Origin: Candidatus Bathyarchaeota archaeon
Lineage (GTDB): Archaea; Thermoproteota; Bathyarchaeia; Bathyarchaeales; Bathycorpusculaceae
Direction of reading: 5' to 3'
DNA: 33,637 bases
NCBI GenBank assembly: GCA_029907545.1
Contig: JARYLR010000016.1
Span: 1-33,637, forward strand
Below the pieces are notes generated by a model. The model ran no database searches and had not been told where the DNA came from. It was given only the letters and a program-made list of their open reading frames with translations. A program made the translations under genes and the position numbers. Below, piece by piece: positions 4,710 through 20,590 of the stretch; position 1 is the first letter of the stretch; every line of letters starts with the position of its first letter.

Positions 4710-6920
4710 CTATTCAAGTGCAAACCGGTCAAACAAAGTCAACGCACTCGTTGCGCCGCACAAAGGACACTTATGCAACTGTCCAAAAGAGCTTCTCCCG
4801 CAACTAGAGCAAAAGGTCAATTTGCGATTATACGTGAAAAACCTAATACCATATTCGCTCATGAGCTGCTTGCTTAGAAGGATAAGCGAATCTGGCTTAA
4901 TCTCTGCTTCTCCAAGCTCAACAACCGTAAGATTGGCGCCTTCATGCAGCCAGCTTGATCTCCGCGCGTTAGATAAAGGTTTAGGCTCAAGCTTACCTTC
5001 GCGATAGGTAAGTCGAGCAAACGTGGGATAGAACGGCTTATCTCTTGTTCCAGAAAAACGAATCTTGCCTACACCATATCTTTCAATATCCGCTTGCACC
5101 AGCCTTCTGGAAGCCTCAAAATCGGGCAGAACGACAGGCGACAAGCGTCTAACCCGTTTTCCACTTTTCTGCAAAAAAGCCGTAACCTCATCCACAACTT
5201 CCTTTTCAAACGCCGCAGACTTTTCTTCTTCAAATTTGCTGTCGGAAAACGCCTCTGCAGCATTTTCGAACCCTGCAAAACTAACCAGCAAAGAGCTCGC
5301 ATCCAGCCTAAAGTATTCATCCCCATTAGCACGCTGCAACAGGAATGGCAGCAAACCTTTCCCAAAATTTCGAAGAGCACGATACTTAATTTCAAGAGCA
5401 CGCGAAGCCATATTCAGCCTCTCCTTGAGGACAGAAAAAAACTTCGCCTTGTCTTTTTCCGCCTCATAGACTATTCGAGGCAGATTAACCGTCACATGAC
5501 CTAAACAGCCTACGCGCAAAGTATCAGTCTCCCAATCCCCGTTTAAATCATCATTATACCAGCATCCAGAAGGAGAGAACACACGGCAAGCATTATCTTT
5601 CTCAGAAACATCAGCAAAAAATACGTTGCCATATCCAAGGGCTAACGAGTGTGCTTCAAGAAACAGTTGTCTTGCCTTCTCATCGACGAATATGTCCGAT
5701 CGCACCTTCACAGTTAACTTAACTTTCCGAAGAGGAGTAAGAACGCTTTGCTCCTTCACAACCTTGAACAAAACTGACGCTAGCAACTGAGCTTCTGCAA
5801 GAAAATCTCTGTATTGGTAGCGAGCTTTTTCAGCGAAACCAACAGCAGGTTTTGAAGCTAAAAACTCTGGAACAACAAGCTCAAGCCCAAAAGACACATC
5901 AGCGTGCTGACATACACTAAAAAGGAAAAAACGCAACGATTCCTCAATTTTAGCTGAATCCGGAGCCCTTATAAACGGAGACAAAAATACGTTAAAGTAC
6001 TCTAAGGTTTGGGTGCTGTTCACTTCTCTAACCGAATGCAAGATAACATTCAAAACAATTGCCAAAGCTTCCTCAAAGTTTCGCGGAGGTAAAGGAGAAA
6101 AGCCGAAAGAAGCTGTTTTCTCAAGATGCAAACCGTTCTGCAAGAAGAATCTAATATCATGAACTACTTCAGTTGGCTTCGTGATCCAGCTGTCAAGTCT
6201 GTCTAGGTGAAGTGAACCTGACAGATGCGCATCCGCGATGTCTCTTGGAAGCACGTTCAGAAGAATATACTCTCTTAGAACAGTGTCTCCTGCAGCATCA
6301 CGGATGGATTCGGCTCCTTCAAAAGTTTTGCTCTTGCCTTCAATAAGAGCGAAAACATCGTGAACTGGTAGCCCTAAACGTGTAAGTCGGTGGCGATAGT
6401 CCTCTAGGCCTTTGTCTATCAAAATCGTATTAACAATCTCTCGAATAAGCGGTGCTGTAACATACTTCGTCCTCGACTTAAGAATCTGCTTCTCTGCTTC
6501 TTTAGCTACTTTCTGAGCCAAATCAGCAGGCATACGTGTCTCCCTGATAAGCGAATCAGCAATCCTGTTAACGTCAAACTCCTCTAAAGTTGAACGCGAT
6601 GTGCGGATCAACATACCTCGTGGCTTGTAAGCTCTCTTCTCTATTCTGTCCGCCACATCAACAACCATTTTACCCAGGTCAGTTAAACAATATTTCTTCG
6701 AATCCGCATCCACCTCCACCAAGTCCGCCTTAAGCAGAAACCTCAAATGATAGGCAAACCTCCCAGCATCCTTGCTAGGACTCATCCTAAGCAGACTCAT
6801 CAACTCACTATATGACAGCGCGCTCTTGTCAAAAAGTAAACTAAGTATCTGCAGCCTAGTGGGAGACGAAACCGCCTTCAGTATCCTAACACCACGTAAC
6901 TTATGCGAGACAGACACCAT
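4710..6920 (-). CDS. Winged helix / ATP-cone / NrdD-like protein lacking the glycyl-radical site
   Basis: 736 residues in three parts. Residues 1-90 are an ArsR-like winged helix (SSPTRLQILSLL, then KDAGRFAYHLRFLLKADLVE). Residues about 103-190 are an ATP-cone, the nucleotide-sensing domain of ribonucleotide reductases and NrdR. Residues about 205-736 follow class III (anaerobic) reductase NrdD, including VGCLGHVTVNLPR, which supplies the thiyl-radical cysteine (Cys472), and a C-terminal zinc site C704-x2-C, C718-x2-C721. The protein ends ...LFDRFALE where active NrdD has R-[IV]-x-G-Y with the radical glycine, and it has Glu251 where family members commonly have a Cys before HD. No NrdG activase is in the window. 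It is best read as a nucleotide-binding regulator built from a retired reductase. The start has a good GAGGGG site. It shares its upstream region with the divergent tRNA-Pro. Confidence 0.8.
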   Translation of the reverse strand: MVSVSHKLRGVRILKAVSSPTRLQILSLLFDKSALSYSELMSLLRMSPSKDAGRFAYHLRFLLKADLVEVDADSKKYCLTDLGKMVVDVADRIEKRAYKPRGMLIRTSRSTLEEFDVNRIADSLIRETRMPADLAQKVAKEAEKQILKSRTKYVTAPLIREIVNTILIDKGLEDYRHRLTRLGLPVHDVFALIEGKSKTFEGAESIRDAAGDTVLREYILLNVLPRDIADAHLSGSLHLDRLDSWITKPTEVVHDIRFFLQNGLHLEKTASFGFSPLPPRNFEEALAIVLNVILHSVREVNSTQTLEYFNVFLSPFIRAPDSAKIEESLRFFLFSVCQHADVSFGLELVVPEFLASKPAVGFAEKARYQYRDFLAEAQLLASVLFKVVKEQSVLTPLRKVKLTVKVRSDIFVDEKARQLFLEAHSLALGYGNVFFADVSEKDNACRVFSPSGCWYNDDLNGDWETDTLRVGCLGHVTVNLPRIVYEAEKDKAKFFSVLKERLNMASRALEIKYRALRNFGKGLLPFLLQRANGDEYFRLDASSLLVSFAGFENAAEAFSDSKFEEEKSAAFEKEVVDEVTAFLQKSGKRVRRLSPVVLPDFEASRRLVQADIERYGVGKIRFSGTRDKPFYPTFARLTYREGKLEPKPLSNARRSSWLHEGANLTVVELGEAEIKPDSLILLSKQLMSEYGIRFFTYNRKLTFCSSCGRSSFGQLHKCPLCGATSALTLFDRFALE

Positions 6921-6982
6921 GCAACCCCTCTAAGACTAGAATTACTGCGCAACATAAGAGTTTAAAGGTTAAGGAAACACTC

Positions 6983-11336: not shown

Positions 11337-12374
11337 TTGAGTACTGGACTTGTCAAGAAACTCAGGACTGCAGTATTGCTAGGGTTTGTATTCACAGTCA
11401 TAGGTTTGCTCATTTACAGCAGAATAATGGCTTATTCATTGGCTCCAACAATGAAGCCAGCCGATTTCAGGGGTCTTGCCATCTGGGAAATCCCAATCGC
11501 ATACCTTATCGACTACTTCAGCCATGGTTGGATATGCCTTCTCTTCGCTTTTGTCGCCGCAGGACTAGTATACGAGTTCGTGCCAAAAGAAGCAATTACA
11601 AAATACATGAGCAGCGGCAGAGTGGCAGGGTATGGGCTTGCCCTTGGAATGGCTCCTTTCTTAACTGTCTGCTCGTGCACCATGGTTCCATTATTTGGAG
11701 GCGTGCTCTTCGCAGGTGCGGGCATAGGCCCAGCGATAACCTTTTTGCTCATGGCTCCAGCAGCCAACATACTGAGCATTCTATTGACTGGAGAGTTGAT
11801 ATCCTGGGAATTAGCCGGAGTGCGCATTATAGTATCGATTGTTGTTGCTTTGACCGCAGGCATAGTGATTTCTAAGACACCATGGGGTAGAGCCATAGAG
11901 AAAGAGCATCAACAAACTGTTCCAACTGGTCAAGCATCTATAGAAATTGTAAAACCACCTTTAGACGAGAGATTGTGGGCATCGCTTAAATTCGCAGCGT
12001 ATCTAGCAAAGCAAATTCTACCATTCTTCCTCTTAGGCTTAGTTGCAGTTAGCTACGTGCAAGCATACTTGCCAGAGGACATCGTTGGAACGTATCTAAC
12101 AGGAGTCACTGGTGTGTTGATTGCTTCAGTTATCGGCGGACCATTATACACGCCCACACTGGTCGAAATAGTTCTCGGCAAGGGAATGTTCGAGTTGGGC
12201 ATGTCAAAAGGCGCACTGCTCAGTTGGCTTATGGGACAACCGTATGATGTTGCCAACGCGCTGGCCGTCTCGAGGATAGCCAAATGGAAAGTAGTCCTAA
12301 CATACATGCTCATTGCTTGGGCAGGCAGCGTGGTATTTGGACTCCTATACGGTATGTTGAGTGGGTCTTTGTAA
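11337..12374 (+). CDS. YraQ/DUF318-type permease (ArsP-like efflux)
   Basis: 345 residues with about eight membrane segments in two homologous halves. FLTVCSCTMVPLFGGVLFAG holds the C-S-C-x-x-x-P motif of the family, and FLLMAPAANILSI and IASVIGGPLYTPTLVEIVLG are the matching conserved blocks. Family members export organoarsenicals, or Cu/Zn in some bacteria; the substrate here is unknown, but the ArsR neighbour points to metalloid or metal. The start is TTG at 11337, three bases after the upstream stop, with a distant AAGGA. Confidence 0.85.
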   Translation: MSTGLVKKLRTAVLLGFVFTVIGLLIYSRIMAYSLAPTMKPADFRGLAIWEIPIAYLIDYFSHGWICLLFAFVAAGLVYEFVPKEAITKYMSSGRVAGYGLALGMAPFLTVCSCTMVPLFGGVLFAGAGIGPAITFLLMAPAANILSILLTGELISWELAGVRIIVSIVVALTAGIVISKTPWGRAIEKEHQQTVPTGQASIEIVKPPLDERLWASLKFAAYLAKQILPFFLLGLVAVSYVQAYLPEDIVGTYLTGVTGVLIASVIGGPLYTPTLVEIVLGKGMFELGMSKGALLSWLMGQPYDVANALAVSRIAKWKVVLTYMLIAWAGSVVFGLLYGMLSGSL

Positions 12375-18496: not shown

Positions 18497-19550
18497 GTGC
18501 TGCACCGTTTGAACCGAAATGTAGCTCCATGGACGATTCACCGCGAGACTCTTGTGAAGGCTGAGGACAAAACAGACCCAAGCTACGGCTGTATTCCCGA
18601 AGAAAGACCGGCAGCTGACTACCTGAAGTTCGGCATAATCAATCTGGACAAGCCTGCGGGTCCTTCAAGCCACGAAGTGGCAGCATGGGTCAAACGCATC
18701 CTGAAGATTGAGCATATTGGTCACGGCGGGACTCTAGAGGCTTAGATGCCAGAGACATCCCAATGTGACCGGTGTGCTTCCCGTTACGTTAGAAGAGTCT
18801 AGGAAAATTGTCCAAGCCCTGCTTCTTGGCGGAAAAGAGTATGTTTGCGTGATGAAGCTTCACGGAGACGCGCCCAAACAAAGAATTGAAGAGGTTCTGA
18901 ATGAGTTTCAAGGTGAAATCTATCAGCGTCCTCCTCTGCGGGCGTCGGTTAAGCGGCAACTTAGAACGAGGCGAATCTACTATCTGGATTTCCTAGAAGT
19001 GGAAGGTCGAAATGTTTTGTTCAGGGTTGGATGTGAAGGCGGCACATATATTCGGAAGCTGTGCTTTGACGTAGGGGAAGTTCTCGGGTGTGGAGCGCAT
19101 ATGCAGGAGCTTCGAAGAACGAGAGCAGGTTCGCTTGTGGAAGATGAGGCGGTAACCTTGCATGATGTCGCCTACTGGTTTATGCAGTGGCAGCAGAAGG
19201 AGGATGTGGAGATTTTGAAGCGTTTTGTCCAGCCGATGGAGAAGGCTTTGACGCTTTTTCCTCAGATTGTCATACGGGACTCGGCGGTTGACGCCGTCTG
19301 CCACGGTGCTGACTTGACTGCTCCCGGCGTTTTGTCACTTAAAACCGGAATAAGCAGCGGCTCGATTACTGTGATTTCCTCGTTAAAGGGAGAAGCTGTA
19401 GCTCTTGCAAGGGCAAAGGCTTCTTCGGAGCAGATTTTCCAGATGGTTCACGGCGTCGTCGCCAAAGTGGAGAGAGTGCTTATGCCGCGTGGCACCTATC
19501 CAAAAGGCTGGAGAAGTGGCAAGACCGCAAATGAACACGAAAAAACATAG
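18497..19550 (+). CDS. cbf5: tRNA/rRNA pseudouridine synthase Cbf5 (TruB family), split by a BHB intron
   Basis: The catalytic subunit of H/ACA RNPs, which also modifies tRNA U55. As genomic DNA it appears broken: the first frame stops at 18745 and the second resumes by 18765. Removing 19 nt (18738-18756) joins exons as GGG ACT CTA GAT CCC AAT GTG ACC, restoring the essential GTLDP-N-VTG motif with catalytic Asp81. The spliced gene is 1035 nt (344 residues plus stop), the usual length. Exon 1 has GIINLDKPAGPSSHEV; exon 2 has KEYVCVMKLHGD, GTYIRKLC and a C-terminal PUA domain (about 255-335). Start is GTG 18497, or TTG 18509, which has GAGGTG nine bases before it. Confidence 0.92.
18738..18756 (+). 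other. 19-nt archaeal BHB intron in cbf5
   Basis: The RNA folds as a strict bulge-helix-bulge. Outer helix GGGA (18728-18731) pairs with TCCC (18758-18761), extended by GGTCAC/GTGACC across a 3x3 internal loop. Central 4-bp helix CTCT (18732-18735) pairs with AGAG (18751-18754). The 5' bulge is AGA (18736-18738), the 3' bulge is ACA (18755-18757), and the inner helix GGC/GCC closes a six-base loop. Cutting after the second base of each bulge removes 19 nt and restores the frame. The intron contains the in-frame TAG. Confidence 0.9.
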
Positions 19551-20481: not shown

Positions 20482-20590
20482 GCCGGGGTCTCCTAGCTAG
20501 GTAGGGAGCAAGCCTGGAGACGCCTAGGCGCAGGCGCCTAACAGCTTGTGGCCTCTCGGGGCCGCGTGGGTTCAAATCCCACTCCCGGCG
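20482..20590 (+). tRNA. tRNA-Ser(GGA) with a 23-nt intron
   Basis: Acceptor GCCGGGG pairs with TCCCGGC, discriminator G20590 as in serine tRNAs. The D-arm is TCCT/GGGA with AGG in the loop. Anticodon stem CAAGC (20509-20513) pairs with GCTTG (20544-20548). The loop reads CTGGAG then, after the intron, A, giving anticodon GGA (20516-20518). A 17-base variable arm with a GGCC/GGCC-type stem marks a class II tRNA. The T-arm is GTGGG-TTCAAAT-CCCAC. The mature length is 86 nt. T-rich sequence follows and may terminate transcription. Confidence 0.93.
20520..20542 (+). other. BHB intron of tRNA-Ser, canonical 37/38 position
   Basis: The 23-nt insert after position 37 leaves a BHB-like fold: 5' bulge AGA (20518-20520), 3' bulge ACA (20541-20543), inner helix CGCC/GGCG. 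The central helix CTGG/CCTA has only two G-C pairs, so it is relaxed. Cutting after the second base of each bulge gives the predicted mature tRNA. Confidence 0.8.

Follow-up and report, generated by a model that had tools for sequence, protein, structure and literature searches.

Bulge-helix-bulge introns at a single nucleotide of the catalytic codon of cbf5 in Bathyarchaeia, other Thermoproteota and Asgard archaea

The window analysed here is a 33,637-nt stretch of DNA from a Candidatus Bathyarchaeota archaeon, contig C7 of a 1.46-Mb genome that is 97% complete. On its plus strand, the gene cbf5 is divided between two reading frames (Table 1). The first ORF, of 82 aa, matches the N-terminal part of the Cbf5 models, and the frame of the second exon (261 aa) passes the cut-off of the Cbf5 equivalog model (242) by itself. 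The 19 nt at 18738-18756 include an in-frame TAG at which, as the original prediction had it, the unspliced frame stops after 82 aa, ahead of the catalytic Asp. Splicing at G18737 | A18757 gives a 344-aa Cbf5 in which GTLDPNVTG is restored; this protein scores 443.5 bits with the equivalog model (cut-off 242), and its GTLDP motif lines up with the archaeal Cbf5 of known structure. Both exons are conserved up to the end of the protein. A search of the genome, at its 97% completeness, found this single locus and no second, uninterrupted cbf5. Approximately 900 bp downstream of the gene, at 20482-20590 (+), there is a 109-nt Rfam tRNA match that ARAGORN missed and that apparently has an intron of its own.

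Table 1. Elements of the cbf5 locus and of its putative intron, in window coordinates.
Feature	Position	Strand	Remarks
cbf5 exon 1	18497..18737	+	start is the first possible GTG, taken provisionally; last base is the G of the catalytic Asp codon
15-bp extension of exonic outer helix, 5' strand	18711..18725	+	fold; codon choice of relatives favours pairing
BHB 5' strand, exonic	18728..18735	+	outer helix GGGA 18728-18731, central helix CTCT 18732-18735; fold, covariation
5' bulge AGA	18736..18738	+	fold; predicted cut between 18737 and 18738
BHB intron, 19 nt, AGGCTTAGATGCCAGAGAC	18738..18756	+	sequence, fold, frame restoration, conservation in relatives
Inner hairpin GGC-TTAGAT-GCC, in intron	18739..18750	+	GGC 18739-18741 / GCC 18748-18750; fold
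Central helix 3' strand AGAG, intronic	18751..18754	+	fold, covariation
3' bulge ACA	18755..18757	+	fold; predicted cut between 18756 and 18757
cbf5 exon 2	18757..19550	+	opens with AT of the Asp codon, runs through the stop codon
Outer helix 3' strand TCCC, exonic	18758..18761	+	fold
15-bp extension of exonic outer helix, 3' strand	18764..18778	+	fold; codon choice of relatives favours pairing

Plus-strand positions 18728-18761, given segment by segment in Table 1, form a canonical bulge-helix-bulge (BHB). When 18711-18778 is folded as RNA, this BHB is both the MFE and the centroid structure, with an outer helix lengthened by 15 bp, and none of 200 shuffles was as stable (MFE -36.1 kcal/mol, z -6.27). 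The fold thus returns exactly the structure that had been proposed, and every detail of the proposed anatomy holds by sequence and fold: the helices, the bulges, the excision of 19 nt, the removal of the TAG and the restoration of the Asp. The BHB shape by itself is not decisive for calling an intron. In window-like sequence, perfect 4-3-4-3 BHBs have a chance rate of about 0.3 per strand, and three were found counting both strands. The other perfectly paired BHB-shaped motifs in the window lie at 6900-6958 (+) and 11428-11459 (-), with inserts of 44 nt and 17 nt. Since a motif defined by shape only is not rare, the case rests on frame restoration and comparison: what decides it is that splicing would restore GTLDPNVTG exactly and that relatives conserve the intron.

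An intron in the cbf5 pre-mRNA is known from certain thermophilic Crenarchaeota. It lies at exactly the same position, measures 16-44 nt (several are of 19 nt), has cDNA support for its splicing and was inferred in the ancestor of Desulfurococcales and Sulfolobales (Yokobori 2009, PMC2738675); reports cited for it also include Watanabe 2002 and Yoshinari 2006. A paper of 2020 gives cbf5, in crenarchaeota, as the one additional archaeal BHB intron (PMC7714728). The window intron shares the defining traits of the published ones, namely the position in the Asp codon and a BHB with predicted cuts between the second and third bases of the bulges, and its 19 nt fall inside the published size range. 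It differs in its host, a Bathyarchaeota rather than a member of Desulfurococcales or Sulfolobales, and in its canonical BHB, those published for Crenarchaeota being mostly unconventional (PMC2738675). Compared with the BHB introns of archaeal tRNA and rRNA, the predicted motif, endonuclease and ligase are alike, but those introns split stable RNAs, whereas the one in cbf5 splits an mRNA and must keep the reading frame. The BHB element of Haloferax volcanii HVO_1309 (PMC7714728) is likewise an mRNA target of the splicing endonuclease; it differs in gene and lineage, and it lies in a 5' UTR and leaves the coding sequence uninterrupted.

The same-genus genome (L035) carries an identical 19-nt intron except for one base. 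Among 129 distinct cbf5 genes of Bathyarchaeia, 91 have an intron between the G and the A[TC] of the same Asp codon, and the remainder are cleanly intronless. The intron is found at the same nucleotide in 18 of the 22 Bathyarchaeia families, with variable lengths and covarying helices, and some intron-bearing families, e.g., f1 and f4, include intronless members. The search of related genomes thus bore out the original prediction and rules out an assembly error. One member of f1 (L049, G022:C11:291996-294865) combines a 22-nt BHB intron with an in-frame insert of about 520 aa, located 3' of the intron after GTYIRKLC and containing intein-splicing and LAGLIDADG domains; this core gene is interrupted both at the RNA level and at the protein level. 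Outside Bathyarchaeia, 30 of the 45 other Thermoproteota families sampled with a readable cbf5 have members with an intron at the same nucleotide, some with sizes fitting the published Desulfurococcales and Sulfolobales introns and some of only 13-14 nt. Introns of 13 nt, below the published minimum of 16, occur in seven genes of families f27, f28, f34, f44 and f45 (L162, L179, L187, L192, L234, L238, L241), where the hairpin loop sits directly atop the central helix. Within a mixed set of named archaea, obtained through an alignment led by a consensus protein, the intron is present in a Methanomethylicota archaeon (L291), in Bathyarchaeota B24 (L318) and in a Desulfurococcales archaeon (L324). 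The named loci of the Methanoperedens and Thermococcus groups, Hadesarchaea and methanogens have cbf5 without the intron, and a screen on frame length revealed no broken cbf5 frames in the phylum of Methanoperedens (143 genomes with the gene) or in that of Thermococcus (84). Overall, intron lengths span 13-67 nt across about 190 distinct genes.

The range extends to the Asgard archaea. We found cbf5 in 189 of the 197 genomes searched in the Asgard phylum, and at least 12 of them have a credible intron (G505, G507-G510, G584-G586, G659, G668-G670); in one of these (G585) the intron-bearing gene lies on a contig longer than 1 Mb. The introns of the named Asgard loci measure 31-41 nt and come from Jordarchaeia (L246, L247, L249), Sigynarchaeota (L248), Freyarchaeota (L252) and Asgard LC30 (L276); the Jordarchaeia type has the central helix CACT/AGTG. 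Two further loci assigned to Asgard genomes were set aside. The first (L384, G683:C57) is likely on a contaminant contig, given that the tree places it within Bathyarchaeia and that another cbf5 exists in its genome, and the second (L385, G661:C131) has a very long branch and looks like contamination or misbinning.

The window intron and the crenarchaeal intron occupy the same nucleotide and have the same structure, but the single-gene tree of Cbf5 is too weak to settle their descent. In a tree of 162 Cbf5 rows, 24 changes of the intron label are required, against 52 after shuffling, and the well-supported branches force only 8. The deep branches are weak, and no Thermoproteota family encloses the Asgard genes that have the intron. 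In AU tests, the monophyly of Asgard was not rejected (p-AU 0.26), and the grouping of the intron-bearing Asgards with Thermoproteota was disfavoured (p-AU 0.064). We regard the intron as probably homologous to the cbf5 introns of Crenarchaeota, most Bathyarchaeia, many other Thermoproteota and some Asgard archaea, and the likeliest history would be a single early gain, after which the intron was cleanly lost many times. There is about an even chance that this single gain preceded the split of Asgard and Thermoproteota and that the intron has stayed at the same nucleotide of the catalytic codon ever since. The intron could also be real and owe its wide range to horizontal transfer of cbf5 or to repeated insertion at a favoured site, a serious possibility even if we rate it short of an even chance. 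The distribution is indeed patchy, as the 24 changes against 52 indicate, only about 12 of the 189 Asgard genomes have the intron, in four separate groups, and the p-AU of 0.064 does not reject outright the grouping of these Asgards with Thermoproteota. Weighing against transfer or re-insertion are a nucleotide position that is identical everywhere and the placement of the Asgard genes outside all Thermoproteota families, Asgard monophyly being compatible with the test above. The intronless members inside f1 and f4 are what clean losses would give. A single origin is favoured without being proven because the deep Cbf5 phylogeny is weak.

The structure appears to be under selection, and the exons show it as well. 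Of the 193 distinct intron-bearing genes, 180 have every pair of the central helix formed, a count inflated by related sequences; random re-dealing of the 3' strands gives a mean of 124 and a maximum of 134. The second pair of this helix is C-G (135), U-A (46) or A-U (8), and the 5' bulge is AGA in 160 of the 193 genes. In Bathyarchaeia, the intron-bearing genes differ from the intronless ones in the codons used for Gly (GGG in 69/91 vs 8/38), Asp (GAT in 82/91 vs 7/38), Leu (ending in A in 80/91 vs 10/38) and Val (GTG in 64/91 vs 9/38). The favoured codons supply BHB pairs or bulge bases, and synonymous choice shifts with the intron. Fisher tests on this bias ignore relatedness; phylogenetically independent pairs provide six contrasts, too few for significance alone, with GAT in the expected direction in about five of the six. 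An in-frame stop is present in all 41 introns whose length is a multiple of three (33% expected by shuffling) and in 87 of the 152 others (57%). Therefore, in the set studied, retention never gives a full-length Cbf5 with an insertion in the active site. A retained intron always breaks the protein before the active site, which suggests selection against full-length, inactive Cbf5.

The original prediction had also raised the type of the splicing endonuclease. The genome has two PF01974 splicing endonuclease genes, one keeping and the other lacking the catalytic His, whose products presumably assemble as an (alpha-beta)2 enzyme, and one gene for the RtcB ligase (586 bits). Two separate subunit genes are also present in six intron-bearing Asgard genomes, and a single endonuclease gene was found in each of the genomes tested from Thermococcus, Hadesarchaea and methanogens. 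We rejected the presence of two genes as a predictor of the intron: irrespective of whether they carry it, 63 of the 69 genomes tested from Thermoproteota and Asgard possess a pair. Hence, the enzyme permits the intron and does not predict it, in agreement with the published proposal that a relaxed hetero-oligomeric endonuclease let the cbf5 intron arise.

These results indicate that 18738-18756 is almost certainly a functional pre-mRNA intron of the known archaeal cbf5 BHB type. The transcript would fold into the canonical BHB across the Gly-Thr-Leu-Asp-Pro codons, the two-subunit endonuclease would cut each 3-nt bulge between its second and third bases and free the 19 nt, and RtcB would then join the exons to restore the catalytic Asp codon and the 344-aa Cbf5, an H/ACA pseudouridine synthase. 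Transcripts that retain the intron would be translated only up to the 82nd residue, short of the catalytic Asp. Sequence, predicted structure and enzyme genes were established directly, and for this organism we infer that cleavage and ligation take place and when they do so with respect to translation.

Ribosomes might instead bypass the 19 nt, or frameshift over them, on an unspliced RNA. This could in principle restore the protein, and 19 nt is a short distance, but the introns of relatives reach from 13 to 67 nt, the substrate of the endonuclease is conserved with covarying helices, and published cDNA shows that the corresponding crenarchaeal intron is spliced; we therefore consider bypass very improbable. 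Even less credible, to the point of being negligible, is a pseudogene or a sequencing or assembly error. The stop and the frameshift do break the reading frame of cbf5, but conservation refutes this explanation: the nearly identical intron recurs in the same genus, dozens of independent assemblies have introns of differing lengths at the same nucleotide, and neither exon has decayed before the end of the protein. The gene only looks pseudogenised, as the original prediction had argued, and conservation and covariation in about 190 distinct genes, together with the processing enzymes encoded in the genome, support a real BHB intron. A self-splicing intron of group I or II was rejected, as there is no ribozyme core, 19 nt is far too short and the only Rfam matches in the window are two tRNAs.

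The literature searched, which included few subscription papers, has no earlier report of cbf5 introns in Bathyarchaeota, Asgard, Thaumarchaeota or Korarchaeota. It gives Desulfurococcales and Sulfolobales only, so that the taxonomic range (Bathyarchaeia, other Thermoproteota, Asgard) appears to be new. The original prediction had singled out the lineage, the shortness and the position in the catalytic codon as worth reporting; the lineage stands, within a range wider than supposed, while the other two were already described, as the published introns have the same place and 16-44 nt (PMC2738675). The relatives identified here go beyond the published crenarchaeal set in taking in Asgard archaea and in having introns as short as 13 nt. 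These minimal introns, the stop in every one of the 41 introns whose length is 3n, and the bias of exon codons towards the BHB are further new regularities.

The taxonomic range weighs more than the single case of the window. Finding the intron across Bathyarchaeia, in many other Thermoproteota and in several groups of Asgard puts its likely origin much deeper. A single ancient gain, if true, would push its age back beyond the Desulfurococcales/Sulfolobales ancestor proposed in the literature, and the archaeal branch from which eukaryotes arose would have possessed an mRNA intron spliced by the endonuclease. The cbf5 intron may then rank with the oldest traceable introns of protein genes. In practice, gene callers may split or pseudogenise cbf5, a core gene, in many archaeal genomes, and the approximately 190 natural variants of 13-67 nt can be used to test the requirements of the endonuclease in mRNA.
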